DNA of 64,000 bases, from NCBI RefSeq assembly GCF_003096675.1, contig NZ_QEKW01000012.1, positions 1 through 64,000 on the forward strand, read 5' to 3'. The stretch's first letter is position 1; every line of letters begins with the position of its first letter. Source of the stretch: Actinomycetospora cinnamomea. Its GTDB lineage: Bacteria; Actinomycetota; Actinomycetes; Mycobacteriales; Pseudonocardiaceae. Under the pieces are notes generated by a model, which was not told the DNA's origin, did no database searches, and worked only from the letters and a program-made list of their open reading frames with translations. Below are positions 37,455 through 58,593 of the stretch, piece after piece. A program made the position numbers and the translations under genes.

Positions 37455-37472
37455 GGTTGACGTCCCCAGCCG
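37455..37472 (+). promoter_or_regulatory. GGTTGAC-N6-AGCC leader element, copy 1
   Basis: GGTTGACGTCCCCAGCCG begins 43 bases upstream of the lipoprotein start, 13 bases before its GGAGGAGG. With flanks, CTGGTT and AGCCGG can pair over six positions (two G-U) around a nine-base loop. Confidence 0.6.
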
Positions 37473-37497
37473 GTCGCACCGTGCTGGAGGAGGACCC

Positions 37498-38157
37498 GTG
37501 GCCGTTCGCCGCATCGCCGTCGTCGCCGTGCTGCTGGCCGGGCTGGGAGCGTGTGCCAACGGGCCCGGACCCTCCACCACGGTGCCGACGGTCGTCCCCG
37601 CGATCGACCCGGGGCCGCCGCCGATCGCGCAGGTCGTCCCGCCCGCCGCGGTCCGCGTGGACGGCGTGCACGCCTCCATCGAGTTCGTGCCGGCCTCCGA
37701 GCGCGCCCTCGACGACGACCTGATCGAGCTGAAGACCGAGGAGCCGACGCTCGGCCAGCTCCCCGGCTGGAAGGACGGCAGCGACACCGCGCACCTGCCG
37801 ATCACCGAGGGTGAGCTCCTGCTCGCGGCGACGCCGCCGCGGGGACACGTGCGCACCGAGGGGATGTTCATGCTGAGCCGACAGGGCTCGAACGTGCAGT
37901 TCGAGGACCTCGAGATCGACCTCGACGCTGCCCGCGTGACCGGGACGGTCGAGGGTCGACCGATCACGGTCTTCGACCTCGACGTCTCGAGGGCCCGCGT
38001 CGAGGACCTGCCGTCGCTGCCTCCCATGGTGGTCGACGTCGACGGGCGCATGAGCGAGGAGGCGCTGCGCGAGCTGCAGGAGAAGCTCGGCGCCGGGCTC
38101 ACGCCGGAGGACACCCGTGTGGGCATCGTGCTCCGCCTCCGGCCGGTCGGCTCCTAG
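37498..38157 (+). CDS. Secreted lipoprotein, LmeA/DUF2993-like
   Basis: Predicted 219-aa lipoprotein: positively charged start, hydrophobic core and lipobox LAGLGAC (Cys near residue 19), then a Pro-rich linker and a beta-rich domain (LPITEGELLLAATPPRGHVR, FMLSRQGSNVQFEDLEIDLD, VTGTVEGRPITVFDLDVSRA) with the DUF2993/LmeA-like strand pattern. It would sit on the outer face of the membrane and perhaps bind lipids. The DUF2993 assignment is tentative. GTG 37498 follows GGAGGAGGA. It has its own leader element and is followed by the convergent respiratory operon. Confidence 0.7.
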   Translation: MAVRRIAVVAVLLAGLGACANGPGPSTTVPTVVPAIDPGPPPIAQVVPPAAVRVDGVHASIEFVPASERALDDDLIELKTEEPTLGQLPGWKDGSDTAHLPITEGELLLAATPPRGHVRTEGMFMLSRQGSNVQFEDLEIDLDAARVTGTVEGRPITVFDLDVSRARVEDLPSLPPMVVDVDGRMSEEALRELQEKLGAGLTPEDTRVGIVLRLRPVGS

Positions 38158-38178
38158 CCCACTCCTAGGCCTGGCTGC

Positions 38179-39294
38179 TCACCCGCGGGGCTCGCGCGAC
38201 CAGAACCCTGGGCCGACGGGCTCGATGAAGTCGTGGGGGGCGTAGAGGTAGCCCCGCTCGTCCACCGCGAGCGGCAGCTGGGGCAGGGGGCGGGCACCGG
38301 GCCCGAAGACGGCGCGGGCGTACTCGTTGGCCTGGAACTCGGTCTGGTGGCACGGGCACAGGATCCGCAGGGTGGTCTGCTCGAAGAGCGAGACGGGGCA
38401 CCCCATGTGCGTGCAGATCTTCGAGTACGCGTAGAGGCCGCCGAGGTTGAAGTCCTCCTGGCCGATCTGCTCGACCACCGGCGTGCCGGGGGCGAAGCGC
38501 AGCAGGATCACCGAGCTGTCCGCGCTGCGCAGGATCTTCGAGAGCTTCTCCGGGTCCCCGCGCATGGACTCCCGGAACGGGAAGACGGTCAGCAGGCCGC
38601 CCGGGACCATGTCCTCGGGGCGCACGAGGGTCACGCTGTGCGGGTCGCCGGTGTCCATGCGCAGGTAGGTGCGCTCGCCGTCGGGGGAGTGCCACTCGGT
38701 GGTGACCAGGGGCGCCGGTCCCTCCGACCGCCACGGGTTGCGGATGAGCGAGCCGAGCGCGGTGACGGCGAGGATGCCGGCGAAGGCCGTGCCGGCCGCG
38801 AGCACGGTCCGGCGCAGGAGCTTGCTGCGTCGCAGCCCGGTCTGCTCGAGGATCTCGACGGTCCGGGCGGCGAACGTGCGCTGGGCGACCGGCGGCGACG
38901 GGCCGTCGTGACGCTGCTGGATCGCGACGTCCGGGGGAGCGACCGTCTTCGACCACTCCAGCAGCCCCATCGCCAGCGCGAGCACGGAGATCGCGAAGGT
39001 GATCCCGAGCATCGGGGTGAACCACGAGCGCAGCGTCTCCTGCGGACCGGTGCTCGTGTACTGCCAGGGCCAGAGCACGTAGACGACGACGAAGCCGATC
39101 GCGCCCAGCACGCTGAGCACGAACCATGCCGCCACGCGCCGGATGGCCCGCCGCTCGCCGGGGCCGCCCGGCTCGTGCCGCGGGCTGTCGTCGACCACCT
39201 CGACGTCGTCGAGGTGCGCGCCGAGCCGCCCGAGCTCCCGGACGTCCATCCGGTCGAGGTCACGCTCGGAGGGGGTCGATCCGTCCTCGCTCAC
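38179..39294 (-). CDS. qcrA: Cytochrome bc1 Rieske iron-sulfur subunit QcrA
   Basis: Predicted 371-aa actinobacterial-type Rieske protein with three membrane helices (about residues 56-75, 92-113 and 162-185) and a C-terminal [2Fe-2S] domain whose ligands are in CTHMGCPVSLF and CPCHQTEF. It accepts electrons from menaquinol at the Qo site of QcrB and passes them to QcrC. The GTG start at 39294 overlaps the qcrB stop by 4 bases, making it the last gene of the ctaC-ctaD-qcrB-qcrA operon. The three-helix form is typical of actinobacterial bcc complexes. Confidence 0.95.
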   Translation of the reverse strand: MSEDGSTPSERDLDRMDVRELGRLGAHLDDVEVVDDSPRHEPGGPGERRAIRRVAAWFVLSVLGAIGFVVVYVLWPWQYTSTGPQETLRSWFTPMLGITFAISVLALAMGLLEWSKTVAPPDVAIQQRHDGPSPPVAQRTFAARTVEILEQTGLRRSKLLRRTVLAAGTAFAGILAVTALGSLIRNPWRSEGPAPLVTTEWHSPDGERTYLRMDTGDPHSVTLVRPEDMVPGGLLTVFPFRESMRGDPEKLSKILRSADSSVILLRFAPGTPVVEQIGQEDFNLGGLYAYSKICTHMGCPVSLFEQTTLRILCPCHQTEFQANEYARAVFGPGARPLPQLPLAVDERGYLYAPHDFIEPVGPGFWSREPRG

Positions 39295-40802
39295 GACTCA
39301 CCTCGCAGCCGTTGCGGCGTCGGTGTCTTGGGCACGCGGGCGCCGTCGTACTCCGGGTCGTGCTCCCCGCCGTCGGCGTCGACCCCGACGAACGGCTGCT
39401 GCACCGAGCGGTAGGCCCCGTCGACCGGCCGCTCGAGGATGCCGGTGGCGATCCCGCCGGAGAGCGCCTCGCGGTCCGAGCGCTGCAGGCGCTCGCACAG
39501 GCGCCTGGTCACGAGGTAGACCAGCGGCGGCAGCACGAACACCGCCCCCCGCTCGACCCAGCGCAGGGGCTCCAGGGGGATCGACAGCACCGTGGCGGAG
39601 ACGTCGTCGGTGCCGGCGAGGGTGAGCACGCCGAACAGGGCGAGGGCCATCGCCCCGATCGCGGTGCGCTGCGGGGCGTCGCGGGGACGGTCGAGCACGT
39701 TGTGCAGTTCCCGGTCGGGGTCGCGGAGGCGGTCGATCAGCGGCCACGCGAAGAGCAGCAGGATCAGCACCAGGGGGATCATGACCCCGCTGAAGAAGCC
39801 CCCGGGGATCGTGTACTCCCCGCCGACCGAGATGTCGGTCGGCGGGAACAGCTTGAGCGACCCGATCAGCCACAGCGCGTACCAGTCGGGCTGGGACCCG
39901 TTGCTCACCTGCGTCGGGTTGTAGGGACCCCAGTGGAAGATGGGGTTGATCTGCGCGACACCGGCGAGGAGCCCGAGGACGCCCGTGGTGATGAGCAGCA
40001 TGGTGATGCTGTGCATGGCGAACACCGGCAGCGTCCGGTTGCCGACCACGTTCGACTCGCGGGCCCGAGGCCCCTTGAAGTGGGTGTGCTTCTGGTACCA
40101 GACCACGGCGAGGTGCACGGCGATCAGCGCGAGGAGGATCCCGGGCAGCAGGAGCACGTGCGCGATGAAGAACCGCTCGATGTAGATCTCGCCCGGGTAC
40201 GCGCTCTCGAAGACCATCCAGTGCAGCCAGGTCCCGATCACCGGGATCGACAGCAGGATCCCCGAGAAGATCCGGACGCCGGTGCCCGAGAGCAGGTCGT
40301 CGAGCATCGAGTAGCCGAGGTAGCCCTCGAAGATCGCGACGACGAGCATGGCGACGCCGATGAACCAGTTGATCTCCCGGGGCGCCCGGTAGGCGCCGGT
40401 GAAGAAGATCCGGGCCATGTGCAGCATGATCGCGGCGAGGAAGATCAGCGCCGCCCAGTGGTGGAGCTGGCGCAGGAAGAGCCCCCCGTGCACGTCCACC
40501 GAGATCTGCATGACCGAGACCCACGCGCGGCTCGCCTCGAGGCCGTAGGTCGGGGCGTACGAACCCTGGTAGATCACCTCGTCCATCGAGGGCACGTAGA
40601 AGAGGGTGAGGAGGATCCCCGAGCCGAGGAGTACGACGAACGAGTAGAGCGCGAGCTCGCCCCACAGGAACGAGAAGTGCCACGGGAAGACCTTGTTGAT
40701 CTGGTGGCGGGCCAGGCCGGCGAGCTGGAAACGCCGCTCGGCACCCCGGGCGGCGCCCGCGGTGAGGCTGTAGCGGCGGGGGCGGTAGCCGCGGCTGGTC
40801 AT
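39291..40802 (-). CDS. qcrB: Cytochrome bc1 cytochrome b subunit QcrB
   Basis: Predicted 503-aa membrane protein. Heme ligands are in LRQLHHWAALIFLAAIMLHM and FIAHVLLLPGILLALIAVHL, and the quinol-oxidation motif is PDWYALWLIGS (P-D-W-Y, the actinobacterial variant of P-E-W-Y). A long C-terminal extension of about 75 hydrophilic residues after the last helices is typical of actinobacterial QcrB. It oxidises menaquinol and transfers one electron to QcrA and one across heme b. ATG 40802 overlaps the upstream small membrane gene (ATGA). Confidence 0.96.
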   Translation of the reverse strand: MTSRGYRPRRYSLTAGAARGAERRFQLAGLARHQINKVFPWHFSFLWGELALYSFVVLLGSGILLTLFYVPSMDEVIYQGSYAPTYGLEASRAWVSVMQISVDVHGGLFLRQLHHWAALIFLAAIMLHMARIFFTGAYRAPREINWFIGVAMLVVAIFEGYLGYSMLDDLLSGTGVRIFSGILLSIPVIGTWLHWMVFESAYPGEIYIERFFIAHVLLLPGILLALIAVHLAVVWYQKHTHFKGPRARESNVVGNRTLPVFAMHSITMLLITTGVLGLLAGVAQINPIFHWGPYNPTQVSNGSQPDWYALWLIGSLKLFPPTDISVGGEYTIPGGFFSGVMIPLVLILLLFAWPLIDRLRDPDRELHNVLDRPRDAPQRTAIGAMALALFGVLTLAGTDDVSATVLSIPLEPLRWVERGAVFVLPPLVYLVTRRLCERLQRSDREALSGGIATGILERPVDGAYRSVQQPFVGVDADGGEHDPEYDGARVPKTPTPQRLRGES

Positions 40803-41317
40803 CGCGTCCTCTCCATCGGTGCAGCCGCCACCCGCTCCTCCGCCGCGACCCAGCGCAGGGTGAGCACGATGGCCACGAGTCCGATCGGCAGCATCCCGAC
40901 GATCATCGCGATACCGGCGGGCTCGTCGCCTCGCACGACGAGCGCGAGCGCCGCGGTGTCGAGGACGGGGCAGGCCAGGAACAGGTAGATCGACCGGCCC
41001 GCCTCGGGCAGGCGCGTGGTGCCGCGGCCGAGCACCGGCAGCCAGAAGACGACGGCGCCGGCGAGCACGGCGGCGTGGAGGGCCAGGCCGAGGCCGGGGT
41101 CGGTCCCCGGACCCACGCCCAGCACGGTGACCGCGTGGACCACGGCGAACACCACCAGGATCCCCGCGGCACGCCACGGGTGCGGCCGGGACCACGGCTC
41201 GCGGGCCGCCGGCCGGAGCCGGTGCCCGGCGAGGACGAGCAGCGGTGCGAGGACCGAGGTGATCAGGCCCATGAGCGCCGGGCCGACGATCCCCGTGTGC
41301 ATCGCGTGCCCGGTCAC
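40799..41317 (-). CDS. Four-helix membrane protein, possibly CtaG-like
   Basis: Predicted 172-aa protein with four or five helices. The order H-A-A-V-L-A-G-A-V-V-F-W-L-P-V-L followed by LPEAGRSIYLFLACPVLD resembles the C-terminal half of CtaG-type copper chaperones for cytochrome oxidase, but it is shorter than usual (about 300 aa). It may help insert copper or be an accessory subunit. GTG 41317 and its stop are both overlapped by neighbours, so it is translated with the oxidase and bc1 genes. Confidence 0.6.
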   Translation of the reverse strand: MTGHAMHTGIVGPALMGLITSVLAPLLVLAGHRLRPAAREPWSRPHPWRAAGILVVFAVVHAVTVLGVGPGTDPGLGLALHAAVLAGAVVFWLPVLGRGTTRLPEAGRSIYLFLACPVLDTAALALVVRGDEPAGIAMIVGMLPIGLVAIVLTLRWVAAEERVAAAPMERTR

Positions 41318-41826
41318 GTCGCCTCCCCCCGTCGACGTCGCTGCTGCGCGTGGTGGATCTCCAGCGCCCGGTCGCGGACCTCGTCGCTCGTGGGCGCCCG
41401 GTCGACCGGCACCGACCGTGGGGCCCGCAGCGCGGGGGCGCCCGAGGCGTCGGCGGCCGCCGCCGACAGCCGCTCGCCGCGGACGGCCATGATCACGGCG
41501 ACGACCAGGGGGTAGGGCAGCAGCGCGAGGACCCACACCCCGTAGACCCACGCCAGGCAGAGGACGAGGACGGCCACGCCCGTGGCCCCCGCGGCCACGC
41601 TGCGGTAGGGCAGCCGGAGCTGGGGTCCGGTGCCGCGGCGGCGCAGGGTCACGAGGACCGCGACACCGTAGATCGCGACCAGCGTGGTCCCGAGGAGGTG
41701 GAGGACCACGGGCAGGGGCCCCGGGTCGTAGAAGAGGATCGCCAGGGCGAGGGCGCCGTTCAGCGTCGCCCACAGGCCCACGACGTGGGCCGGCGCCGCG
41801 CCCTTCAGCCCGGCCGCCGGGCTCAT
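41314..41826 (-). CDS. Membrane protein of the cytochrome oxidase operon
   Basis: Predicted 170-aa protein with four helices (GLWATLNGALALAILFY, VVLHLLGTTLVAIYGVAVLV, VAAGATGVAVLVLCLAWVY, LLPYPLVVAVIMAV) and a charged C-terminal tail of about 60 residues. It is not a recognisable subunit III, which would have seven helices, nor a standard actinobacterial subunit IV. Its place, 7 bp behind ctaD and overlapping the CtaG-like gene, suggests an accessory oxidase subunit. Confidence 0.65.
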   Translation of the reverse strand: MSPAAGLKGAAPAHVVGLWATLNGALALAILFYDPGPLPVVLHLLGTTLVAIYGVAVLVTLRRRGTGPQLRLPYRSVAAGATGVAVLVLCLAWVYGVWVLALLPYPLVVAVIMAVRGERLSAAAADASGAPALRAPRSVPVDRAPTSDEVRDRALEIHHAQQRRRRGEAT

Positions 41827-41833
41827 CCGGCGC

Positions 41834-43546
41834 TCACCGCCCGCCGCCCGAGCGCAGCCCGCCGTGCTCGGTCGGGTCGTCCCCGGTGCGCTCCTCGCCC
41901 TCCTCGCGCGCCCGCTCGTCGAGCAGCGGCGCGAAGCTCGGCACCCGCGGCAGCGGGTGCTCCCGGTCGAAGTTGGTCGGCGGGGGCGGCGAGGACGTCG
42001 CCCACTCCAGCGTGAACCCCTGCCAGGGATCGTCGCCGGCCGGCCGGCGACGGTCGCGCACGGAGGTGACGACGTTGGCGATCGTGACGATGACGCTCAG
42101 CGCGATGAGGACGGCACCGGCGCTCGCGATGACGTTGGCGGTGGTGAATCCGTCCTGGGGCAGGTAGGTCGCGATGCGCCGCGGCATGCCCTCGAGACCG
42201 AGCCAGAACATCGGCAGGAACGTCACGTTGGTGCCGATCGTCAGCAGCCAGAACTGCCATCGACCGAGGCGCTCGTCGAGCAGCAGCCCCGTCGCCTTCG
42301 GGAACCAGAAGTGGAACGCGGCGAACATCCCGAACAGCGAGCCGGCCGCCAACGTGTAGTGCCAGTGGGCCACGATGAAGTAGCTGTCGGTCACCTGGTA
42401 GTCGATCACCGGGGTCGCGACCATGATCCCGGTGAGCCCCCCGATGAGGAACTGCGGGACGAACGCGATCGCGAAGAGCATGGGGACGGTGAAGCGCAGC
42501 TGCCCGCCGATGACGGTGGCGAGGAAGCCGAAGTACTCCACCCCGGCCGGGACGAGCAGCAGGATGGAGGTCAGCGAGTAGTAGTCGTTGCTGGCCTGCC
42601 CGGTCGAGAACATGTGGTGGCCCCACACGCTCATCGAGAAGGCCGCGAAGGTCAGCAGGGAGACCACCGTGGCGCGGTAGCCGAAGAACCGCCGTCCGGA
42701 GAAGGTCGAGAGCACCTCGGCGACCACCCCGACGAACGGGAAGAACATGACGTAGACGACGGGGTGGGCGAAGAACCAGAACAGGTGCTGGTAGGCGATG
42801 TTCCAGAGGTTCTCGGTGAAGATGTTCGGGAACACGCGGCCCCACGCCAGCAGGCCCATGGCCGCCAGCAGGGACGGGAACGCCCCGATCACCATGAGGT
42901 TCGTCGCGATCGACGACCAGGTGAACACCGGCATCCGCATCAGCGTCACCGGCTTGGCGCGCTTGAGCAGCGCGGTCCACAGCACGGTGCCGGCCTGGAA
43001 GATCATGCCCAGGACCGCGATGAAGACCCCGGCGATCCAGAGGCTCTGCCCCGTGCCGGGGAGGTAGCGGGAGCTGTTCAGCGGGGGATAGGCGTACCAG
43101 CCGCCCGCGGCCGGGCCCAGGGCCGTGGCGAACCCCGCGAAGATCAGGACGGTGCCGGCGAGGTAGAGCCAGAATCCGGTCATCGCCAGGCGTGGAGCCG
43201 CCACGGCGGGCGCGCCCACCTGCAGCGGGACCAGGTAGAGGCCCAGGGCGATCGCCACCGGCGTCACGACCAGGTAGATCATCCCGGAGCCGTGGATCGT
43301 GAACAGGCCGTTGTAGAAGTCGTTGCTGACCAGGTGCTGGTCGGGCAGCGTCAGCTGCGCCCGCACGACCAGGGCGAGGACGCCGACCACGATGAACAGC
43401 ACCAGTGCGGTGCCCAGCGTCAGCAGGGCGATGCGCTTGTGGTCGGTGGTCGTGAGCCACGCGGCCGCGGTCCCGCGCCGGCTCCGGGGCGGGACGTCCT
43501 CCTGCCGGTGCTCGGGCTGCTGCGCGGACTCGGTCTCCGCCGTCAC
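41834..43546 (-). CDS. ctaD: Cytochrome c oxidase subunit I CtaD, non-canonical proton channels
   Basis: Predicted 570-aa heme-copper oxidase subunit I with 12 helices. Redox ligands are intact: low-spin heme His in TIHGSGMIYL, CuB His and cross-linked Tyr in HPVVY, CuB His pair in GHHMFSTG, and heme ligands in HWHYTLAAG. However the D-channel Glu of the usual G-H-P-E-V-Y is Val (AHPVVY) without the alternative Tyr-Ser of A2-type oxidases, and the K-channel Lys of P-T-G-I-K is Glu (VPAGVEYFGF). The GTG start overlaps the ctaC stop. Terminal electron acceptor role is clear; proton pumping is doubtful. Confidence 0.94.
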   Translation of the reverse strand: MTAETESAQQPEHRQEDVPPRSRRGTAAAWLTTTDHKRIALLTLGTALVLFIVVGVLALVVRAQLTLPDQHLVSNDFYNGLFTIHGSGMIYLVVTPVAIALGLYLVPLQVGAPAVAAPRLAMTGFWLYLAGTVLIFAGFATALGPAAGGWYAYPPLNSSRYLPGTGQSLWIAGVFIAVLGMIFQAGTVLWTALLKRAKPVTLMRMPVFTWSSIATNLMVIGAFPSLLAAMGLLAWGRVFPNIFTENLWNIAYQHLFWFFAHPVVYVMFFPFVGVVAEVLSTFSGRRFFGYRATVVSLLTFAAFSMSVWGHHMFSTGQASNDYYSLTSILLLVPAGVEYFGFLATVIGGQLRFTVPMLFAIAFVPQFLIGGLTGIMVATPVIDYQVTDSYFIVAHWHYTLAAGSLFGMFAAFHFWFPKATGLLLDERLGRWQFWLLTIGTNVTFLPMFWLGLEGMPRRIATYLPQDGFTTANVIASAGAVLIALSVIVTIANVVTSVRDRRRPAGDDPWQGFTLEWATSSPPPPTNFDREHPLPRVPSFAPLLDERAREEGEERTGDDPTEHGGLRSGGGR

Positions 43547-44196
43547 ACCGACGCTCCCCCGGAGGCGAGGTACTGCTGGTACTCCTGCTCCGACACCGCC
43601 CGGATGAAGAACTCCATCGTCGGGTGGTGCGTGCCGCAGAACTCGGAGCACTTGCCCAGCCACGTGCCCGCGTGGTCGAACGTGGTGGCCAGGACGTTCG
43701 TGTGGTCGGGATAGACGTCGCTCTTGAGGGCGAGGTCGGGGATCCACATCGCATGCACGACGTCGCGGGAGGTCAGGCGCAGCTCCACGGGCCTCCCGAC
43801 GGGCACGACCAGGGTCGGCCGGGTGGCGGGGTCCTCCGCGCAGGCGCCGGTCACGGTCACCGGGCCGTCCCGGTGGGCGAACTCCCAGCACCACTGGAAG
43901 CCCGTGACGTCGACGGTCACGACGTCGGCCGCGGCCAGCACGGCCTCCTGGCGCTGCGCCTGACGTCCGTTCGCGTTCGCCGTCACGACCACCAGGAAGA
44001 TCGCGATGCCGAGGAGGGCGACCGCGTAGCCGATCTCCAGCGGCATGTTGTCCGCCCGGGACGAGGGCGGACGTCCGGCACCGGCCCGCCGGCGCCACAG
44101 CGACACGGCGAGCAGCACGGCGATGACCGCGAAGACCACGCTCGCGATGACGATCTCGAGCAGGAAGATGTCGCGGAAGATCGGCAGGAAGGACAC
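43543..44196 (-). CDS. ctaC: Cytochrome c oxidase subunit II CtaC
   Basis: Predicted 217-aa protein with two N-terminal helices (about residues 10-32 and 53-72) and a CuA cupredoxin domain. The CuA ligands are in RDVVHAMWIPDL and GKCSEFCGTHHPTMEF (C-x3-C, His and Met). It accepts electrons from cytochrome c. The mature domain is short and there is no fused cytochrome. GTG 44196 follows GAGGAGG. It heads a six-gene operon, and its leader carries an inverted pair of GGTTGA/TCAACC sites. Confidence 0.94.
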   Translation of the reverse strand: MSFLPIFRDIFLLEIVIASVVFAVIAVLLAVSLWRRRAGAGRPPSSRADNMPLEIGYAVALLGIAIFLVVVTANANGRQAQRQEAVLAAADVVTVDVTGFQWCWEFAHRDGPVTVTGACAEDPATRPTLVVPVGRPVELRLTSRDVVHAMWIPDLALKSDVYPDHTNVLATTFDHAGTWLGKCSEFCGTHHPTMEFFIRAVSEQEYQQYLASGGASV

Positions 44197-44231
44197 GCGC
44201 CTCCTCGCTTTCCGGCGTCCGGGACGTGGCC

Positions 44232-44260
44232 GGTTGAGGAAGGGGCTGCGGTGGTCAACC
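44232..44260 (-). promoter_or_regulatory. GGTTGAC-N6-AGCC leader element, copy 2, with inverted partner
   Basis: On the minus strand GGTTGACCACCGCAGCC (44260 to 44244) begins 64 bases before the ctaC start. On the plus strand GGTTGAGG (44232-44239) faces it, so GGTTGA and TCAACC form an inverted pair 17 bases apart, the only copy with such an arrangement. Confidence 0.55.
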
Positions 44261-44336
44261 TCCGTCGGGGCGCCGAGCATCGCGCGCACCGCGGGAGAAG
44301 AGCAAGTCGGACACCCCGTCGACGAGGAGGACGGTC

Positions 44337-44615: not shown

Positions 44616-44706
44616 CGGTCGGCTGACGATCGCCGTGCGGCACGCCGGGCAGCGGTCCGTCGGTGGCGGCAGCTCCGAGCCCGGGTCTACGGTCCCCGGC
44701 GGAGCC

Positions 44707-44724
44707 GGTTGACCCCCTCAGCCG
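44707..44724 (+). promoter_or_regulatory. GGTTGAC-N6-AGCC leader element, copy 3
   Basis: GGTTGACCCCCTCAGCCG begins 57 bases upstream of the formate dehydrogenase ATG at 44764. CGGTT and AGCCG can pair over five positions around a nine-base loop. Confidence 0.6.
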
Positions 44725-44763
44725 TCACCAGACCGGGACACATCACGGGACGGGGTGGGGTCG

Positions 44764-47700
44764 ATGGGGGTCGGGCAGTGGTTGGCGTCGTGGCCGGTGG
44801 TCCGGCAGGTCACCCAGGGCGACCCCGGCGCCCACGGGGCGGCGGTGAAGAGCCCCGAGAGCGCCCACCTCGCGCCGCGCACCGCGGACGCGGACCGGGT
44901 GGTGAAGTCGATCTGTCCCTTCTGCGCCGTGGGCTGCGGGCAGAACATCTCGGTGAAGGACGACCGCGTCACCCAGATCGAGGGTGACCCGGACTCCCCG
45001 GTGAGCCGGGGACGGTTGTGCGCCCGCGGGTCGTCGAGCCTGCAGCTGGTGACCAACCCGCAGCGCGAGCACCGCGTGCGCTACCGGCGCCCCCACGGCA
45101 CCGAGTGGGAGGACCTCGACCTCGACACCGCGATGGACATGATCGCGGACCGGGTGATCGCCTCCCGCCGCCAGGGCTGGGAGTGGGAGTCCGGCGGCTA
45201 CCACGTCCGCCGCACGCTCGGGGTCGCGTCGCTGGGCGGGGCGACGCTGGACAACGAGGAGAACTACCTCATCAAGAAGCTGTTCACGGCCATGGGCGCG
45301 GTCCAGGTCGAGAACCAGGCCCGCATTTGACACTCCGCCACCGTCCCCAGTCTGGGGACCAGCCTCGGCCGCGGCGGCGCCACCACCTTCCAGCAGGACC
45401 TGCAGAACTCCGACCTGATCTTCGAGCAGGGCTCGAACATGGCCGAGTGCCACCCGGTCGGCTTCCAGTGGGTCATGGAGGCCAAGGCGCGCGGGGCGAA
45501 GGTGATCCACGTCGACCCCCGGTTCACGCGGACCAGCGCACTGGCCGACATCCACGTCCCCCTGCGCGCCGGCACCGACATCGCCTTCCTCGGCGGCCTG
45601 ATCAACCACGTGCTGGCGAACGGGCACGAGTTCCGCGACTACGTCCTCTCCTACACCAACGCCGCGACCATCCTCACCGAGGAGTTCGCCGACACCGAGG
45701 ACCTCGCCGGGGTGTTCTCGGGGCTCGACGCGGACGAGCGCACCTACGACTTCCACACCTGGAGCTACGAGGGCACCGAGGTGCAGGCCGCGGCCGGCCA
45801 GCGCGAGAAGATGCGCCCCGACCGGTCGGCGCCCGCGGGGGTGGCCGCCTCCGGGCGGGGCGAGGCCCACGGCTCGGGCGGGGCGCGCGTGCCGTCCGAC
45901 GCCCCGCGGGACGAGACCCTGACCCACCCGCGGTGCGTCTTCCAGGTGCTCAAGCGCCACTACGCCCGCTACACCCCCGAGATGGTCGAGGAGGTCTGCG
46001 GGGTCCCGCCGGACGTCTTCGCCCAGGTCTGCGACCTCCTGGTGGCCAACTCGGGCCGGGAGCGGACCACCTCGTGGGTCTACTCGGTGGGCTGGACCCA
46101 GCACACCGTCGGGGTCCAGTACATCCGGGCGGCGGCGATCCTCCAGCTCCTGCTCGGCAACATCGGCCGGCCCGGCGGCGGCATCCTCGCCCTGCGCGGC
46201 CACGCCTCGATCCAGGGCTCGACCGACATCCCCACGCTGTTCAACCTCCTGCCCGGCTACATCCCCATGCCGCACGCTGCGAGCAACGAGGGGCTGCGGG
46301 AGTACCTCGACACCGAGTCGACCCAGAAGGGGTACTGGGCCTACGCCGACGCCTACCTGATCAGCCTGCTCAAGGCCTGGTGGGGCGGGGCGGCGAAGGC
46401 CGACAACGACTGGTGCTACGACTACCTGCCCCGGCTGACCGGCAGCCACAGCACCTTCGAGACGGTGATGGCCCAGCTCGAGGGCACCTGCACGGGCTAC
46501 TTCGTGCTCGGCCAGAACCCGGCGGTCGGCACCTCCAACGCCAAGATGCAGCGCCTCGGCATGGCCAACCTCGACTGGCTCGTCGTGCGGGACTTCCAGC
46601 TCATCGAGAGCGCCACCTGGTGGTCGGACGGGCCCGAGATCGAGACCGGGGAGATGCGCACCGAGGACATCGGCACCGAGGTCTTCTTCCTGCCCGCCGC
46701 GGCGCACACCGAGAAGGACGGCAGCTTCACCAACACCCAGCGCATGCTGCAGTGGCACCACCAGGCCGTCGAGCCCGACGGGGACGCCCGCAGCGACCTG
46801 TGGTTCACCTACCACCTCGGGCGCCGCATCCGGCAGAAGCTCGCGGCCGCGCAGGAGACGGCCACTCCCGAGGACCGGGACCGGGATCGGCCCCTGCTCG
46901 ACCTGACGTGGGACTACCCCACCAAGGGCCCGCTGGACGAGCCCGAGGCCGAGGCCGTGCTCGCCGAGATCAACGGGTGGGACGCGGACGGGAACCCGCT
47001 GTCGAGCTACGAGCAGCTCCAACCCGACGGCTCCACCGCCTGCGGGTGCTGGATCTACTGCGGGGTCTACGCGGACGGCGTGAACCAGGCGGCGCGGCGT
47101 CGCCCGCAGGCCGAGCAGAGCTGGGTCGCGCCGGAATGGGGCTGGGCCTGGCCGGCGAACCGGCGCATCCTCTACAACCGCGCGTCGGCCGACCCGGACG
47201 GCAAGCCCTGGAGCGAGCGCAAGGCCTACCTGTGGTGGGACGCCGAGCAGGAGAAGTGGACGGGGCACGACATCCCCGACTTCCCGCCGACCAAGGCCCC
47301 GGGCTACACCGCACCGGAGGGCGCCCGCGGCAAGGACGCCCTCGCCGGCGACGACCCGTTCATCATGCAGGCCGACGGCAAGGGCTGGCTCTACGTCCCG
47401 ACCGGGCTGCTCGACGGGCCGCTGCCGACGCACTACGAGCCCCAGGAATCGCCGGTGACCAACGCGCTGTACTCCCAGCAGCGCAACCCGGTGCGCCAGA
47501 TCAGCGCGTTCGTCCACCCCGCCGACCGCTTCGCGCCCAGCGGGCACGAGCCGGGGGCCGACGTCTTCCCGTTCGCGCTCGGGACGTACCGGATCGCCGA
47601 GCACCACACCGCCGGCGGCATGAGCCGCTGGTCGCCGTACCTCGCCGAGCTGGCCCCGGAGCTGTTCTGCGAGGTGTCCCCCGAGCTCGCCCGGCTCCGC

Positions 47701-48048
47701 GGCCTCGAGCACGGCGGCTGGGCGACGATCGCGACCGCGCGCGGCGTCATCGAGACCCGCGTGCTGGTGACCGAGCGGATGGCCCCGTTCCGGATGGCCG
47801 GACGCACCACGTACCAGGTGGGTCTGCCCTACCACTGGGGCCACGGCGGGCCGGCGCCCGGCGACGCGGTCAACGAGCTGACCCACATGGCGCTCGACCC
47901 GAACTCCCACATCATGGAGACCAAGGCCCTGACCTGCGACATCCGGCCCGGCCGCCGCCCTCGCGGGGCGGCCCGGCTCGACCTCCTGCGCGACTACCAG
48001 CGCCGCGCGGGCATCACCGCCGAGACCGGGACGGAGGTCTCCGGATGA
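44764..48048 (+). CDS. fdhA: Formate dehydrogenase catalytic subunit, selenocysteine-containing
   Basis: Predicted 1094-aa Mo/W-bis-MGD formate dehydrogenase read through TGA 45328-45330 as selenocysteine at residue 189. Both sides are in one frame: VQVENQARI before and HSATVPSLGTSLGRGGAT after, exactly the N-Q-A-R-I-U-H-S context of FDH-N/O enzymes. The N-terminal [4Fe-4S] motif is CPFCAVGCGQ with a later RGRLCARG. A SECIS hairpin starts 12 bases after TGA. No Tat signal is visible, so the enzyme is probably cytosolic-facing. It oxidises formate to CO2. ATG 44764 is preferred; GTG 44755 is possible. The next gene overlaps its stop. Confidence 0.95.
45328..45359 (+). promoter_or_regulatory. 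Selenocysteine codon (TGA) and SECIS hairpin
   Basis: After TGA (45328-45330) a stem GTCCCC (45343-45348) and GGGGAC (45354-45359) closes a loop AGTCT. In E. coli fdhF the apical loop is AGGTCT, and its conserved G-T falls 20-21 bases after TGA, the same register as here. It recruits SelB to the ribosome. Confidence 0.9.
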
Positions 48049-52322: not shown

Positions 52323-52586
52323 ATGATCGGGTTCATCGTGGCCGGACTGATCATCGGTGCACTCGCGAGGCTGATCAAGCCGGGCAGGCAGAACCTCGGC
52401 ATCCTCGCCACCCTGCTCCTCGGCCTCGTCGGCTCCGTCATCGGCGGGTCCGTGGCGAGCTTCCTCGGGACGGGGAGCATCTTCGAGCTGAACGTCCTCG
52501 GCTTCGTCGTCGCCGTCGTCGCCGCGGTGCTCCTCATCGGGGTCGCCGAGGGACTCGCCGGGCGCCGCCGCACGACCCGCACATGA
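52323..52586 (+). CDS. GlsB/YeaQ/YmgE-family membrane protein
   Basis: Predicted 87-aa protein with three helices and the transglycosylase-associated (YeaQ/YmgE) pattern: GFIVAGLIIGALARLIKPG, then LLGLVGSVIGGSVASFLG and a final VVAVVAAVLLIGVAEGLAG. Members are general stress proteins of unknown mechanism. ATG 52323 follows GAGGAGGGAGG. TAACAT at about 52290 could be a -10. The preceding 258 bp contain no supported gene. Confidence 0.88.
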   Translation: MIGFIVAGLIIGALARLIKPGRQNLGILATLLLGLVGSVIGGSVASFLGTGSIFELNVLGFVVAVVAAVLLIGVAEGLAGRRRTTRT

Positions 52587-52788
52587 CCGTGCTCCGGCAG
52601 CCTGCCGCCCCCGAGGGGACCGCCCGCGCGTTCTCGTAGCCCGGCGCGGCTGCCGGTCCGGTCGATCGGGCCCGCCTTACGTGGGCCTGACGAATGTTCC
52701 GGCCACCTCGCCATCCCGTTTCTCGCGCGGACGCTTCCGGGGATCACGACCGTCGTTCCGGGATGGGCGAGCAGGACGGAGGTCCCTC

Positions 52789-53790
52789 GTGGCCAAGGTG
52801 GCGGTGGTGACCGGGGGCACGGCCGGTGTCGGCCGGGCGACGGTGCGCGAGCTCGCTGAGGCGGGCTACGACGTCGGCGTGGTCGCCCGCGGCCGCGCCG
52901 GCCTCGACGCCGCCGTGGCCGACGTCGAGCAGCGGGGCCGGCGGGGGCTGGCGGCGGTCGCCGACGTCGCCGACCACGACGCGGTGGAGCGCGCTGCGTC
53001 CCAGATCGAGACCGGTCTGGGGGAGATCGACCTTTGGGTCAACTGCGCCTTCTCCGGCTCGCTGGCGTACTTCTGGGACACCTCGATGGAGGAGTTCAAG
53101 CGGCTGACGGAGGTGACCTATTACGGCCAGGTGCACGGCACGGAGGTCGCCCTGCGTCGAATGCGCCCTCGGAATCGAGGGGTGGTCATCAACGTCGGGT
53201 CGGCGATGGCCTACCGCTCCATCCCGCTCCAGTCGGCCTACTGCGGGGCCAAGCACGCCATCAAGGGCTTCACCGAGTCGGTGATGACCGAGCTGGTCCA
53301 CGAGAAGAGCGCGGTGAAGCTGTGCACCATCCAGCTCCCGGGGCTCAACACCCCGCAGTTCACCTGGAACCTCAACAAGATGCCCCGGCACCCCATGCCG
53401 GTCGCGCCGATCTTCCAACCGGAGCTCGCGGCCCGCGGCATCCGCTACCTCGCCGAGCATCCCCGGCGGAACATGTGGGTCGGGATCGCGACCGCCTACA
53501 CGATCTTGGGGGAGCGGTTCGCGCCGAAGGTGGTGGACCTCTACCTCGGCCGCAAAGGGGTGTCCGGGCAGCAGACCGACCGGGACACGCCGCGGCACGG
53601 GTCGAACGTCTTCGCCCCGGCCGACGAGGACGCCGACCGCGGCGCGCACGGACCCTTCGACGACCGGGCCCACGAGCGCGATCCCCAGCTGTGGGCCTCG
53701 ATGCACCGCCGGGGGCTTCTCGCCGGGGCCGCGGCCCTCGCCGCGGGCGTCGGCGGCGCCGTCACCACGCTCGCCCGGTCGCGCCGATGA
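52789..53790 (+). CDS. Short-chain dehydrogenase/reductase with C-terminal anchor
   Basis: Predicted 333-aa classical SDR: cofactor loop VVTGGTAGVGRATVRELAEA (residues 6-25), active-site Ser in VINVGSAMAYRS and Tyr-x3-Lys in YCGAKHAIKGFTES. Substrate unknown. After the catalytic domain a polar linker of about 60 residues (DTPRHGSNVFAPADEDADRG) leads to a hydrophobic C-terminal helix (GLLAGAAALAAGVGGAVTTL), so the enzyme may be membrane-tethered. GTG 52789 follows ACGGAGG. Its stop overlaps the next start. Confidence 0.88.
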   Translation: MAKVAVVTGGTAGVGRATVRELAEAGYDVGVVARGRAGLDAAVADVEQRGRRGLAAVADVADHDAVERAASQIETGLGEIDLWVNCAFSGSLAYFWDTSMEEFKRLTEVTYYGQVHGTEVALRRMRPRNRGVVINVGSAMAYRSIPLQSAYCGAKHAIKGFTESVMTELVHEKSAVKLCTIQLPGLNTPQFTWNLNKMPRHPMPVAPIFQPELAARGIRYLAEHPRRNMWVGIATAYTILGERFAPKVVDLYLGRKGVSGQQTDRDTPRHGSNVFAPADEDADRGAHGPFDDRAHERDPQLWASMHRRGLLAGAAALAAGVGGAVTTLARSRR

Positions 53791-54146
53791 GCACCCTGCC
53801 GCCGCGGCCGCCGCGCGCTGCGGTCGCCGGCGTCCGCATCGCGTACGGCGTCCTGCTGATCCTCGTGCCGACCGAGGCGCTGCCCACCACATCCGACCGC
53901 GTCGGGGCGGTCGTGGCCCGGCTGCTCGGCGCGCGGTTCCTCGTCCAGGGTCTCGCCGCAACGTGGGTCCCGAGGCTGGTCACGGCGCGGCGCGGCGCGC
54001 TGGTCGACGGCGCGCACGCGACCAGCATGCTCGGTTGGGCGGTGCTCGACCGCGGGCACCGGCGCGCGGCCCTCGTCAACGCGGTGATCGCCGGCCTGTG
54101 GGTGCTCGTCGAAACGGAGACCGCGAGACGAGAACAGGACCGCTGA
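53787..54146 (+). CDS. Small membrane protein downstream of the SDR gene
   Basis: Predicted 119-aa protein with three or four helices (AGVRIAYGVLLILVPTEALP, VVARLLGARFLVQGLAATWV, AALVNAVIAGLWVLVETETA). No family recognised with confidence; similar small proteins appear beside SDR genes in actinomycetes. ATG 53787 overlaps the SDR stop (ATGA), so it is coupled to the tethered dehydrogenase and may interact with its anchor. Confidence 0.7.
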   Translation: MSTLPPRPPRAAVAGVRIAYGVLLILVPTEALPTTSDRVGAVVARLLGARFLVQGLAATWVPRLVTARRGALVDGAHATSMLGWAVLDRGHRRAALVNAVIAGLWVLVETETARREQDR

Positions 54147-54234
54147 CGGGCCTCCTGGTTCCACCGGCAGATTGAAGCCGATCCGTCACCCCGCGACGGC
54201 ACCGGCTCCGACGAAGGACCCTCGAGGAGCTCTC

Positions 54235-54486
54235 GTGCTCGACGCCCGGAACAGCACATCCTGCACACCATCGAACGCCAGCTGGCGAGCGGTGATCCGC
54301 GTCTCGACCGGCTCAGCCGCAAGCTCCACCGGCGAGCGCCGTGGGGGCCGGCCTCAACGCTCGCCGTCGGCGTGCTCGTCGGGGTCTTCCTGGTGACGCT
54401 CGGAGTGGTCGGTCACGCGCTGCTGCTCGTCGCGGTGGCGGCGCCGCAGCGCACCGCGGAAGGGCCGCTCACCCGATCACCCCTGA
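54235..54486 (+). pseudogene. DUF3040-type membrane protein gene with frameshift
   Basis: GTG 54235 after GAGGAG opens a DUF3040-like start (V-L-D-A-R), but the frame breaks at 54248-54251. One extra G in CCCGGAACAG would give REQHILHTIERQLASGDPRL, the conserved DUF3040 helix, then two membrane helices (STLAVGVLVGVFLVTLGVVG and LLLVAVAAP). No stop follows in that frame before the convergent GH15 gene, while TGA at 54484-54486 is in the starting frame, so a second lesion is likely. The 3' end is approximate. Confidence 0.55.
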
Positions 54487-54497
54487 CGCGGTGGTCG

Positions 54498-56279
54498 TCA
54501 GGCCGTGCCGGCGTCATCGGCCTCCAGAGGCTCGAGCACCGCGGCGCACTCGAGCAGCATCGCGTGCACGAAGGCCTGCGGCAGGTTGCCGCGCAGCTGA
54601 CGCTCGGTGACGTCGAACTCCTCGGTGAACAACCCGGCGGGACCGCAGGCGGACCGGGCGCGTTCGAACAGGTGTCGCGCGGTGAGGGCGTCGCCCTGCT
54701 GGTGGCACGCCAGGGCGGCGACGAAGTTGCAGAGCAGGAAGGCACCCTCGGAAGTGCCGAGCGGGCGACCGTCGGCCCGGAAGCGGTAGGCGTAGCCCTC
54801 CCGGGTGAGGCCACTCAGGTAGGTGTCCAAGGTCCGCCGGCACCGCGGGTCGTCGGCGGGCAGGGCTCCCCGCAGCGCCGGGAGCAGCAGGGCCCCGTCG
54901 TGGCCCGGGTCGTCCGGGGACCGCTGCCAGCGCCCGTCGGGGTGGGTCGAGGTCGCCGCGGTGTGGGCGAGCAGCCGGTCGGCGAGCGCCGACCACCGCC
55001 CACTCAGTGCGGCGTGGCCAGGTCCCACGGCGGCGGCGACGTCGCGGAGCCCGGCTACGCAGCTCAGACGGCTGTGCGTCCACTCGCGGTCGTCGAGCTC
55101 CCAGATGCCCGCGTCGGGCTCCGTCCACCGCTGCTCGATCGCCTCGGTGACCACCAGGACCGCGCGCCATCCGTCGGCGTCCAGACGGTCGTGCCGGGCG
55201 GCCGCGGCGAAGAGCGTGAGCACCTCGCCGAACGCGTCGAGCTGGAACTGCCCGCCGGCGCGGTTGCCGAGGCGGTGGCCGCCACCGGGGTAGCCGGGGA
55301 CGTCGAGATCACGCTCACCGGGGACACGATCGCCGGCAACGGTGTAGCAGGGCGCGAGACGGGGGCCGTCGTCGAGCACCCGGGCGCCGAGGAAGCGGAC
55401 CGCGTCGCCGAGCAGGTCGTCGACGCCGGCAATCGCGGCGGCCCGACCCGCGAAGCACTGGTCGCGCACCCACACGTAGCGGTAGTCGTAGTCGCCGGCG
55501 CCGCCGAGGCGCTCGGGCAGGCTCGTCGTTGCGGCACCGACCATCCCGCCGCCGGAGGCCGTGAGCCCGCGCAACACGCATGCCGCGTGGGCGGCGTCGC
55601 GGGGCGCGGCGCCGATGCGGGGCGGCGTGGTCTCGTGCCAGCGGGTCTCGGTGCGCTCCCACGCTCGCTCCGGTTCCGGGGGAGGGCCCACGGGCTCGGC
55701 GCGACCGATCTCGAGGACGAGGTCGTGCCGGCTGCCCGGGGGCACGCACAGGTCGAGCTCCAGGCGGGGCGCGCCGTGGACGTCGGACACGGTCGCGCCG
55801 GGTGCGCCGCTCCAGCGCAGATGCAGGTCACCGAGGCGACCGGTCCAGCAGCCGTCATCGGCCTGCCCCAGGTCACGCAGCGCGCCGGCGCCGAAGTCTG
55901 CCCGGGGGTCGAGGACGACGTGGACCGCGGCAGGGACGTCGTGGGCCAGCACGCGACGCAGGAGTACCAGCCGGTCGACCTCACCGGGGAACGCGAGCGC
56001 CTCCCGGCACTCGAGGATTCCGGAGTTCGTGGCCCAGCGGTTGCGCCAGATGAGCGTGGCGTCCTCGTAGTACCCGCCCCACACGAACCGCTCGGTCGGG
56101 GTGATCGTGTAGTGCCCCGGTGCGCCCATGAGTGAGGTGAACACCGCGGGCGAGTCCCAGCGCGGGGCGCACATCCACGCGACGTCCCCCCGCGGTCCCA
56201 CCACGGCTCCCCGCTCGCCGTCCGCGAGCACGGCGTACTCGCGCAGCACGTGGGGTGAGCTCTTCGGGCTATCGGTCAC
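54498..56279 (-). CDS. GH15 family glucoamylase/trehalase-like protein
   Basis: Predicted 593-aa cytosolic glycoside hydrolase of family 15. N-terminal beta domain about residues 1-255; (alpha/alpha)6 barrel from GGAGDYDYRYVWVRDQCFAG onward. The catalytic acid is Glu394 in AGIWELDDREWTHSRL, and the base region is GLFTEEFDVTERQLRGNLPQ (Glu553/554) with PQAFVHAML. Actinobacterial relatives hydrolyse trehalose or malto-oligosaccharides. The GTG start at 56279 follows CGGAGGGCC, 12 bases behind the enolase-superfamily gene, so they form an operon under leader element copy 4. Confidence 0.9.
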   Translation of the reverse strand: MTDSPKSSPHVLREYAVLADGERGAVVGPRGDVAWMCAPRWDSPAVFTSLMGAPGHYTITPTERFVWGGYYEDATLIWRNRWATNSGILECREALAFPGEVDRLVLLRRVLAHDVPAAVHVVLDPRADFGAGALRDLGQADDGCWTGRLGDLHLRWSGAPGATVSDVHGAPRLELDLCVPPGSRHDLVLEIGRAEPVGPPPEPERAWERTETRWHETTPPRIGAAPRDAAHAACVLRGLTASGGGMVGAATTSLPERLGGAGDYDYRYVWVRDQCFAGRAAAIAGVDDLLGDAVRFLGARVLDDGPRLAPCYTVAGDRVPGERDLDVPGYPGGGHRLGNRAGGQFQLDAFGEVLTLFAAAARHDRLDADGWRAVLVVTEAIEQRWTEPDAGIWELDDREWTHSRLSCVAGLRDVAAAVGPGHAALSGRWSALADRLLAHTAATSTHPDGRWQRSPDDPGHDGALLLPALRGALPADDPRCRRTLDTYLSGLTREGYAYRFRADGRPLGTSEGAFLLCNFVAALACHQQGDALTARHLFERARSACGPAGLFTEEFDVTERQLRGNLPQAFVHAMLLECAAVLEPLEADDAGTA

Positions 56280-56291
56280 ACGGCCCTCCGG

Positions 56292-57425
56292 TCAGGCCAC
56301 ACGGAACCGCTCCATGTCCGTCGTGCGCAGCTCGAGCCCGTGGCCCGGGCGGGAGCGGTCCGGGCGCAGCCGTCCACCGGGTTCCGGGTGGAGCACCCCG
56401 TCGAAGGCCATCCCCTCGATGCGGACGTGGTCGTGGAAGTACTCCAGGTGTCGCAGGTGCCAGATCGCCGTCCCCACGTGGGCACTGATCTGGGGTGCGC
56501 AGTGCAGCGAGAGGTCGATGTTGCGCGCGTCGCACAGCGCCGCCACCCGGGTCGTGGCGGTGATCCCGCCGCAGCGGGTGACGTCGGCCTGGAGGCAGTC
56601 CACCGCGCCCGCGGCGAGCATGCGGTGAAAGGTGGGCAGGTCGTAGCCGTACTCGCCGGCGGCGATGTCCAGCCCGCCGGGGCCGTGGTCGCGCAGGAGC
56701 GCGAGGCCTTCCAGGTCGTCGGAGGTCACGGGCTCCTCCAGCCACCGGACGCCCTGGTCGGCCAGGCGCTGTGCCCAGGCGAGTGCCTGCTTGCGGGTGT
56801 AGGCGCCGTTGGCGTCGACGAAGAGCCCGACCGCGGATCCGACGACCTCCCGGGTCAGGGCGAGTCGGTGCGGGTCCGCGTCGGGGTCGCGTCCCACCTT
56901 GATCTTCACCTGTGGCAGGCCCGCCGCGAGCCAGCCCTCCAGCTGGGCGCGCAGCTGCTGGTCGTCGTAAGAGGTGAACCCGCCGCTGCCGTAGATCGGG
57001 GTGGCGTCGTGCACCGGGCCGAGGACGACCGACAGTGGCAGCCCGAGTACCCGCGCGTGCAGGTCCCAGAGCGCGATGTCGACCGCGGAGATCGCCTCGG
57101 CGACCACGCCGGGACGCCCCAGGTTGCGCACGGCGGCGTGCATCGCCGACCACGCCGCCGGCACGGCCAGCACGTCGCGGCCCTCCACGATCCCGGCCAG
57201 CGTCGAGCTCACCGTGGTCGCCGCGGGCGGCCCGGCGTAGGTGTAGCCGAGGCCGACGTGCCCGGCCGCGTGCGCCTGCACCACCACGAGCGTGGTGGCG
57301 TCCCACTCGAGCGTGCCGTCCGACTCGGGCGCGTCCGTGGGCACCGTGTAGGCCGCGACGTCGATGCCCTCGCACGGCACGGGCCCGCTCGTGGCGGCTG
57401 ATCCCGGCGCTGCGCTCCTCCCCAC
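56292..57425 (-). CDS. Mandelate racemase/enolase-superfamily enzyme
   Basis: Predicted 377-aa enolase-superfamily protein: capping domain in the first 120 residues, then the barrel with K-x-K (Lys174 and Lys176 in QVKIKVGRDPDAD), metal ligand Asp in LFVDANGAY, Glu in WLEEPVTSDDLEG, Glu in AAGEYGYD and a late His in LSLHCAPQISAH. This set fits mandelate-racemase-type sugar acid dehydratases or related enzymes; substrate unknown. GTG 57425 is chosen because GAGGGAGG precedes it, whereas GTG 57452 has no site. It heads the operon with the GH15 gene. Confidence 0.88.
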   Translation of the reverse strand: MGRSAAPGSAATSGPVPCEGIDVAAYTVPTDAPESDGTLEWDATTLVVVQAHAAGHVGLGYTYAGPPAATTVSSTLAGIVEGRDVLAVPAAWSAMHAAVRNLGRPGVVAEAISAVDIALWDLHARVLGLPLSVVLGPVHDATPIYGSGGFTSYDDQQLRAQLEGWLAAGLPQVKIKVGRDPDADPHRLALTREVVGSAVGLFVDANGAYTRKQALAWAQRLADQGVRWLEEPVTSDDLEGLALLRDHGPGGLDIAAGEYGYDLPTFHRMLAAGAVDCLQADVTRCGGITATTRVAALCDARNIDLSLHCAPQISAHVGTAIWHLRHLEYFHDHVRIEGMAFDGVLHPEPGGRLRPDRSRPGHGLELRTTDMERFRVA

Positions 57426-57451
57426 GGCGTCCTCCCTCGGGGTGCGGGTCA

Positions 57452-57468
57452 CGGCTGGGAGGTCAACC
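57452..57468 (-). promoter_or_regulatory. GGTTGAC-N5-AGCC leader element, copy 4
   Basis: On the minus strand GGTTGACCTCCCAGCCG runs from 57468 to 57452. It begins 43 bases before the enolase-superfamily start, 12 bases before GAGGGAGG. CGGTT and AGCCG can pair around an eight-base loop. Confidence 0.6.
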
Positions 57469-57686
57469 GGGTCTCAGCGTCGAGGTGGCCGGGCGTGGCC
57501 GCAATGCGCGGACGCCCCGCATGTCCCGGAACGCCCGTTTTCTGGACGCAACGCAAGGCGACCGACAGGTCCGGACCGTCCCGGTCGGCCGCCGCCTGCG
57601 CAACGCTGGTCGACGACGAGGAGCGCCGCCGTCGAACACACGGCCGGTCGCGCACCGCTCCAGCATGAGAGCTCGAGAGGTAGCCC

Positions 57687-58559
57687 ATGTCCCGTCGACG
57701 CCCAGCCGTACACGACCCGGGACGGTCCGACCCCGTGACTCCGGAGCCGCTCGCTCACGACCCGCTCGCCCCGGATCCCCTGACCTGCCTCCTCGATCCC
57801 GACCACCCGCACAGGCCACGGATCGTGACGGAGGGCCCGGTCGCCTGGCTCACCGCGCTGCTCGCGGGCGCCGTCTTCGCGATCGACGGGGCCGACGTCG
57901 GCAGCGTCGTCGGGCTGAGCAGCGAGGGGGCCCGCACCTGGGCGGCCACGCTCCCGGTGGCGGAGGATCTCGACCGGCGGGGCGTGGAGTGGGGAGAGGG
58001 GCCCGGCGCCGACGCACTCCGCGGGCGAACGCCGCCCGGCACCGTGACGGTCACCCCTCTCGACGAGGTCGCGACCCGGCGCTGGCCGCGTTGGTCGGCG
58101 CGGGCCCGCTCGGTGGGGATCGCGGCGACGCTGTCGGTGGTCCTGCCCGGAGGGTCGCCCAAGAGGCCCGCGGTGCTGGTGGTGCACGGGCCCGACACGT
58201 CATCGTTCGGGGCCTCGTCCGTGAGCGCCGCCCGGGCGTTCGCCGCACCCGTAGCGGTGGCCGTGCAGGCCACCGCGCGCGTCGCAGGCCTGGAGCGGGC
58301 GCTCGAGAACCGGGACGTCATCGGTCGCGCCAAGGGTCTGCTGATGGCACGCGGAGGTGTCGACGACGAGGAGGCCTTCGGCCAGCTCGTCGCGGTCTCC
58401 CAGCGCCGGAACCTCCGCCTGGCGGAGGTCGCCGCCGAAATCGTCGAGCGTCACTCGGCGCGGCGGCCGGCGCCGCACCCCGCACCGGGTCCGACGCCGG
58501 ACGCGACCCCGCGTCCGGGACCGCGTCCGGCACCGCCGGCATCACGCCGGGCCGGCTGA
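57687..58559 (+). CDS. GAF-ANTAR RNA-binding regulator
   Basis: Predicted 290-aa cytosolic regulator: a GAF-like sensor about residues 45-205 and an ANTAR domain about 208-265 (ALENRDVIGRAKGLLMARGG, then EEAFGQLVAVSQRRNLRLAE and VAAEIV), followed by a Pro-rich tail. ANTAR proteins bind paired RNA hairpins and prevent transcription termination. Its targets are unknown, but the leader stem-loops upstream of the two flanking genes make it a candidate worth testing. ATG 57687 lies in a 261-bp gap that contains a perfect GGTCCGGACC palindrome (57568-57577). Confidence 0.88.
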   Translation: MSRRRPAVHDPGRSDPVTPEPLAHDPLAPDPLTCLLDPDHPHRPRIVTEGPVAWLTALLAGAVFAIDGADVGSVVGLSSEGARTWAATLPVAEDLDRRGVEWGEGPGADALRGRTPPGTVTVTPLDEVATRRWPRWSARARSVGIAATLSVVLPGGSPKRPAVLVVHGPDTSSFGASSVSAARAFAAPVAVAVQATARVAGLERALENRDVIGRAKGLLMARGGVDDEEAFGQLVAVSQRRNLRLAEVAAEIVERHSARRPAPHPAPGPTPDATPRPGPRPAPPASRRAG

Positions 58560-58576
58560 ACATCGGCCAGGGAGAC

Positions 58577-58593
58577 GGTTGACCCTCCAGCCG
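58577..58593 (+). promoter_or_regulatory. GGTTGAC-N5-AGCC leader element, copy 5
   Basis: GGTTGACCCTCCAGCCG begins 46 bases before the ThDP enzyme start and 14 bases before its GAGGAGGG. CGGTT and AGCCG can pair around an eight-base loop. Confidence 0.6.

Follow-up and report, generated by a model that had tools for sequence, protein, structure and literature searches.

The first 64,000 nucleotides (nt) of contig NZ_QEKW01000012.1 from Actinomycetospora cinnamomea, which we call the window (the whole stretch of DNA analysed), carry a short leader element in front of five genes. The sequence-only reading of this DNA had described it as five intergenic copies of GGTTGAC-N5/6-AGCC lying 43-64 bases upstream of gene starts. 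A pattern scan of both strands of the 64-kb window returned exactly five matches, all of them intergenic by the gene calls of our own simple codon-usage caller. The copies are present where they had been placed, with end positions that needed correction by one base in four of the five:

37455..37471, plus strand: copy 1, GGTTG-ACGTCCC-CAGCC, pattern match; before the lipoprotein gene at 37498-38157
44244..44260, minus strand: copy 2, GGTTG-ACCACCG-CAGCC, pattern match; before ctaC (COX2 by Pfam) at 44196-43543
44707..44723, plus strand: copy 3, GGTTG-ACCCCCT-CAGCC, pattern match; before the selenocysteine formate dehydrogenase gene
44764..48048, plus strand: gene for the formate dehydrogenase catalytic subunit, with a Pfam molybdopterin Fe4S4 domain and in-frame TGA codon 189
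57453..57468, minus strand: copy 4, GGTTG-ACCTCC-CAGCC, pattern match; before the MR_MLE gene (enolase superfamily by Pfam)
58577..58592, plus strand: copy 5, GGTTG-ACCCTC-CAGCC, pattern match; before the TPP-enzyme gene (by Pfam) at 58623-60434

Measured from the element start, the start codons lie 43, 64, 57, 43 and 46 nt away for copies 1 to 5, in keeping with the range given earlier; that of copy 4 is counted from the likely start of the minus-strand MR_MLE gene, a GTG at 57425, with a second candidate start at 57380. Pfam backs four of the gene names given earlier (COX2, molybdopterin Fe4S4, MR_MLE and TPP enzyme), and the lipoprotein gene has no Pfam match. The rough estimate of well below one chance copy also held up: shuffled windows contain a mean of 0.04 matches and at most 1, and none of 100 shuffles reaches five.

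A C precedes AGCC in all five window copies, and the stem first drawn as GGTT/AGCC, with loops of 8-9 bases starting GAC, is thereby refined to arms GGTTG and CAGCC around loops of 6-7 nt that begin with AC. The pairs flanking these arms are T-G, A/C (unpaired), C-G, C-G and C-G in copies 1 to 5, so that the three C-G pairs and one U-G pair described earlier were indeed found. Because this C is invariant in the window and loops of 6, 7 and 8 nt occur in relatives, the element is GGTTG-AC-N-CAGCC; its sharper form is GGTTGAC-N4..6-CAGCC, with arms of 5 nt and a loop of 6-8 nt that is usually rich in C.

Most of the analysis rests on a curated set of 63 leaders in 27 gene groups from Actinomycetospora genomes, drawn from 194 unique contexts with at most one mismatch to a pattern that lets only some positions vary. 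An automatic filter passed 58 leaders, two were removed by hand, and seven more, at which the start caller had failed, were put in manually. Of the start positions three are manual; two of these (L081_16609 and L139_16256) open only short frames and are doubtful, and the start of L083_9931 was reset before the folding and the comparison with background Shine-Dalgarno (SD) regions, its earlier value of 22 being a placeholder. The element is exact in 56 of the 63 leaders; three differ at the loop C (GGTTGAG), and four, all of one gene group, have CAGCT. It lies on the coding strand, with the start codon 24-66 nt (median 32) after it, and its loops measure 6, 7 and 8 nt in 27, 21 and 15 leaders. 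Among 64 reverse-orientation copies listed, eight are near a start, and seven of these eight are explained by the own leader of a divergent gene, the exception being L154. Exact-match counts within the fetched loci are biased, because the loci were mostly fetched for holding an exact match; when the upstream regions of these loci were scanned with mismatches allowed, 7 genes had a one-mismatch copy, compared with 0.7 when the pattern was shuffled.

Clusters of the exact element recur across 18 genomes of the genus. In the window genome there are 20 exact matches, part of them inside coding sequence, against 3 for a reversed control pattern. A search of relatives with an SD-coupled pattern gave 62 matches against 0 control matches in the 16 genus genomes of the family sample, a total that counts in repeated matches at one site and some coding-sequence matches. 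Rows for other genera in the family scan resemble their own controls, as judged by eye. In nine non-genus genomes with an excess, 6 of the 28 matches listed are intergenic and no more than 85 nt from a called start, and one of these six (L325) has GTAC at a fitting distance; isolated copies may thus occur in other genera. In an order-wide scan with a stricter pattern, 24 of the 28 opened matches outside the genus lie in coding sequence, and none of the remaining four is followed by a called start within 100 nt. Among 30 formate dehydrogenase leaders read across the family, L270-L272 carry the element and L276 (G313, same genus) does not, while none of the 25 read from other genera carries it, L280 having only a two-mismatch similarity. 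The element looks genus-restricted within the sampled family.

The element defines a regulon and is conserved at orthologous genes. Leaders of ctaC carry the element in three genomes (the window genome and two others, L072 and L157), those of the formate dehydrogenase gene in the window genome and five others, and the lipoprotein gene has an orthologue in A. lemnae (L142) whose leader also has it. A chance word or mobile repeat could account for the many exact matches that lie elsewhere in these genomes inside coding sequence, but it is scarcely credible as a general explanation, given the 0.04 copies expected in the window, the 62 against 0 in the genus, and the 27 unrelated gene groups with different flanks. 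We conclude that this is a real, lineage-specific regulon element.

Its target set is much wider than the respiration, formate, pyruvate and sugar-acid metabolism proposed at first. Pfam was run on 20 target proteins, four of which have no family; the named ones include COX1, COX2, molybdopterin oxidoreductase, hemerythrin, STAS, CheB methylesterase and PCMT, together with a metallo-beta-lactamase fold, a TPP enzyme, an enolase-superfamily enzyme and a nuoA-like chain, while AraC-like, WhiB-like and P450-like targets were recognised by eye only. Presence at paralogues is patchy. For ctaD (COX1), 30 of 44 listed matches were opened, three of them without an anchor, and an exact element lies within 460 nt of the anchor in 3 of the 27 loci with a usable one. 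The nuoA-like gene of the window's own genome alone carries the element among 14 loci, most of the others not being clear orthologues; its called start is 89 nt away, which places it outside the 63 leaders.

The formate dehydrogenase frame (44764-45553, plus strand) has its TGA codon 189 in the context QARI-U-HSATVP, as is seen in selenocysteine enzymes, and an orthologous locus (L058) contains a weak SECIS_3 match (26.9 bits, E 0.035, below threshold). Elsewhere in the window, 413-34794 holds a dense run of CBS-domain-like and universal-stress-like proteins (named by eye) with no exact copy of the element.

An unsupervised search of the 45 nt upstream of the 63 leaders, made with no positional prior, found GGTACCCt, whose best site ends 6-13 nt before GGTTGAC in 50 of the 63; at least one such site at this distance is present in 22 of the 27 gene groups. 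AT content peaks at -14 to -12, again upstream of the element, and the 47 leaders with a clear -10 (orthologues included) show 25 instances of GTG or GTT at offsets -22 to -20 from that -10. In Streptomyces coelicolor, SigB-homologue promoters have a GTT/GTG -35 and a GGGTA/GGGCA -10 with the start shortly downstream (PMC8346170). Similar boxes stand upstream of many of our leaders, and GGTTGAC...CAGCC is an extra module. The upstream -10 of most leaders resembles that of SigB-homologue promoters, and from its spacing we infer that the element probably falls within about the first eight bases of the transcript. The element is not simply part of the promoter, because of 41 matches to a loosely defined GGGTA-type promoter in these loci, 30, some of them probably chance, have no element after them.

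In the window itself a -10 candidate at 6-13 nt was found for one copy:

44688..44693, plus strand: -10-like TACGGT (inferred promoter) upstream of copy 3, read from sequence and chosen by a scored scan

At this copy the unsupervised search chose a different site that overlaps TACGGT. That only one of five window copies has such a candidate speaks against a uniform promoter. It also lends something to the view that the TTGAC contained in the element is itself the -35 of a sigma factor whose -10 lies downstream, a view the sequence-only reading had already set aside for three of the copies. We find it very improbable: across the 63 leaders the -10-like element and AT peak lie upstream of the element rather than downstream, SD sites sit where the transcript would start, and CAGCC would be left unexplained.

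The loop of copy 5, GACCCTCC, can pair with its own SD region GGAGGGATC:

58607..58615, plus strand: Shine-Dalgarno region of copy 5, able to pair with the loop of that copy; it ranks at 0.018 against 328 background SD regions

Across the 63 leaders the complementarity of each loop to its own SD beats that to swapped SDs (z -4.3, p 1e-4), and the swap test holds with one leader per group (27 groups, p 0.0075); against an upstream control region it gives p 0.12. Ranked against the 328 background SD regions, 9 of the 63 loops fall in the best 5% and 22 in the best fifth (Kolmogorov-Smirnov p 3e-5; group medians p 0.002). Pseudoknot-free folding of the leaders gives loop-SD pairing of 2.02 in native sequences versus 1.52 (standard deviation 0.095) in 12 chimera sets, and SD accessibility of 0.28 versus 0.33 (standard deviation 0.014), rising to 0.44 in both when the hairpin is forced. 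In some cases loop and SD change together within an orthologous group, as in the hemerythrin leaders, where GACCCCTC goes with GAGGGGTC (L086) and GACCCTGC with ACAGGG (L084). In the formate dehydrogenase leader L080 the loop GACCTCTC stands with the SD GAGAGGTC.

The closing pair outside the arms is formed in 47 of the 63 leaders against 33.5 expected (p 0.0002; C-G 31, G-C 10, T-G 5). A fixed strand, variable loop length, closing-pair covariation and own-loop/own-SD complementarity together favour an RNA reading. We suggest, giving it an even chance of being correct, that the element is a 5'-terminal RNA handle with a gene-matched anti-SD loop that would control translation of a stress and respiration regulon. 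The stem-loop proposed by the sequence-only reading is partly supported.

Besides the missing upstream -10 at four window copies, a number of results weigh against such a handle. Reduced to a single leader from each group, the closing-pair test becomes marginal (median p 0.054); flanking pairs 2-5, 7 and 8 show no covariation signal in the 63 leaders, and flanking position 6, which the model does not need, reaches p 0.004, so relatedness inflates the closing-pair test. The core arms show no compensatory change in the leaders. Neither of two changes that would preserve the inner U-G pairing is enriched (12 matches versus 24 in the control, and 0 versus 1), and none of the 12 matches to the Watson-Crick form GGCTG/CAGCC is followed by a called start within 400 nt. 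The window's own genome also has a formate dehydrogenase paralogue (L273, G000:C14:108504) with the one-mismatch leader GGTTCACCCCCCAGCC, in which GGTTC breaks the inner pair. The swap test restricted to variable positions and one leader per group is not significant (p 0.11), and 41 of the 63 loops lie outside the best fifth of the background, a trend and not a rule. The hairpin reaches a probability above 0.5 in 19 of the 63 leaders and stays below 0.1 in 36.

The lack of enrichment of pair-preserving U-G changes implies that it is the sequence of the arms that is recognised, whether in RNA or in DNA. The main rival is a DNA operator, in which a putative genus-specific regulator would bind GGTTGAC and CAGCC as unequal half-sites shortly past the transcription start and repress or activate transcription. 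In its favour, pair-preserving changes of the arms lack enrichment, and the element keeps a tighter spacing to the -10 (6-13 nt in 50 of the 63 leaders) than to the start codon, where the range is 24-66 nt. The first 20 transcript bases are a classic repressor position, and it is there that the element would lie. We consider the operator rather unlikely all the same: the site has a single orientation relative to the gene although it is nearly an inverted repeat, its spacing varies over 4, 5 and 6 nt, and its loops fit their own SDs better than swapped ones, which a DNA site does not need. A third possibility, that a terminal hairpin stabilises the mRNA by blocking 5'-dependent decay of stress transcripts with no switching, agrees with the short stem and its inferred place at the very start of the RNA. 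It is improbable: protection of this kind should depend on structure and not on sequence, but the Watson-Crick version with perfect pairing shows no enrichment, and in 36 of the 63 leaders the hairpin probability is below 0.1.

If the RNA handle is the correct reading, transcription would start a few bases before the element, and the RNA would begin with the handle GGUUG...CAGCC and a variable, usually C-rich loop that tends to be an anti-SD matched to its own gene. When no partner is bound, the loop would pair with the SD and translation would be held down; a putative shared trans-acting partner, protein or small RNA, may read the arms, favour the hairpin and free the SD, or act in the reverse sense. 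In this way translation would be gated for a subset of stress-sigma transcripts. A more specific proposal, which we regard as unlikely, is that these leaders form a modular family of RNA switches in which an invariant 5'-terminal handle (GGUUGAC...CAGCC, with a mandatory U-G), one genus-specific trans-acting factor and gene-matched loops would gate dozens of unrelated SigB-type stress transcripts.

Leader switches that sequester the SD, including pseudoknot riboswitches of the preQ1-I type, pair the C-rich loop of a short hairpin with a downstream SD. The element resembles them in having a C-rich, short-hairpin loop able to make such pairing, and differs in its fixed arms, gene-specific loop, many unrelated targets, complementarity that is not universal, and absence of an Rfam match. 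Rfam 15 gave no match at gathering score in the window, and at a permissive threshold eight loci gave four sub-threshold matches, none at an element. ANTAR-target RNAs consist of two stem-loops whose six-base loops carry A1 and G4 (PMC8164766); like the element, they are small stem-loops found in actinobacterial leaders close to the ribosome binding site. Both have A as the first loop base, though in the element this is fixed by the search pattern. An ANTAR-domain protein gene lies at 57687-58559 (plus strand), between copies 4 and 5 and just upstream of the TPP-enzyme leader. We rejected an assignment to the ANTAR targets: two adjacent stem-loops were not found, there being no consistent second hairpin between element and SD (by eye, in single-sequence folds), and the loops are 6-8 nt with G4 in 10 of 63, and in 5 of the 27 six-base loops. 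A second hairpin (P2) between element and SD, taken by itself, was hinted at by eye in some groups, but single-sequence folds gave no common structure and the idea was dropped.

Two further repeats touch the element. An intergenic inverted repeat, CCCTGGCC-GGTTGAC..CAGCC-GG(T/C)CAGGG, places the arms within a longer near-perfect stem (L007:1501 and 1612, L055:1501, L141:15608) and occurs twice within 130 bases in the window's own genome; they might be terminators or a repeat family of their own. Another recurring word, GACGAC(A/G)GGAG, coincides with the SD in several element leaders whose genes are unrelated (L078-L084), and ACGACA occurs in 5 of the 63 leaders against 0 of the 328 background SD regions.

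A literature search limited to one library found no description of the element, and little regulatory literature on Actinomycetospora. The earlier description was accurate, and it was right to leave the choice between RNA and operator open. The regulon extends further than was thought: one short leader element is shared by respiratory genes, redox-related proteins, sigma-factor signalling proteins and a selenocysteine formate dehydrogenase. Should the element act as RNA, translation would be a second shared layer of control atop the general-stress promoter, with loops evolving to match each gene.

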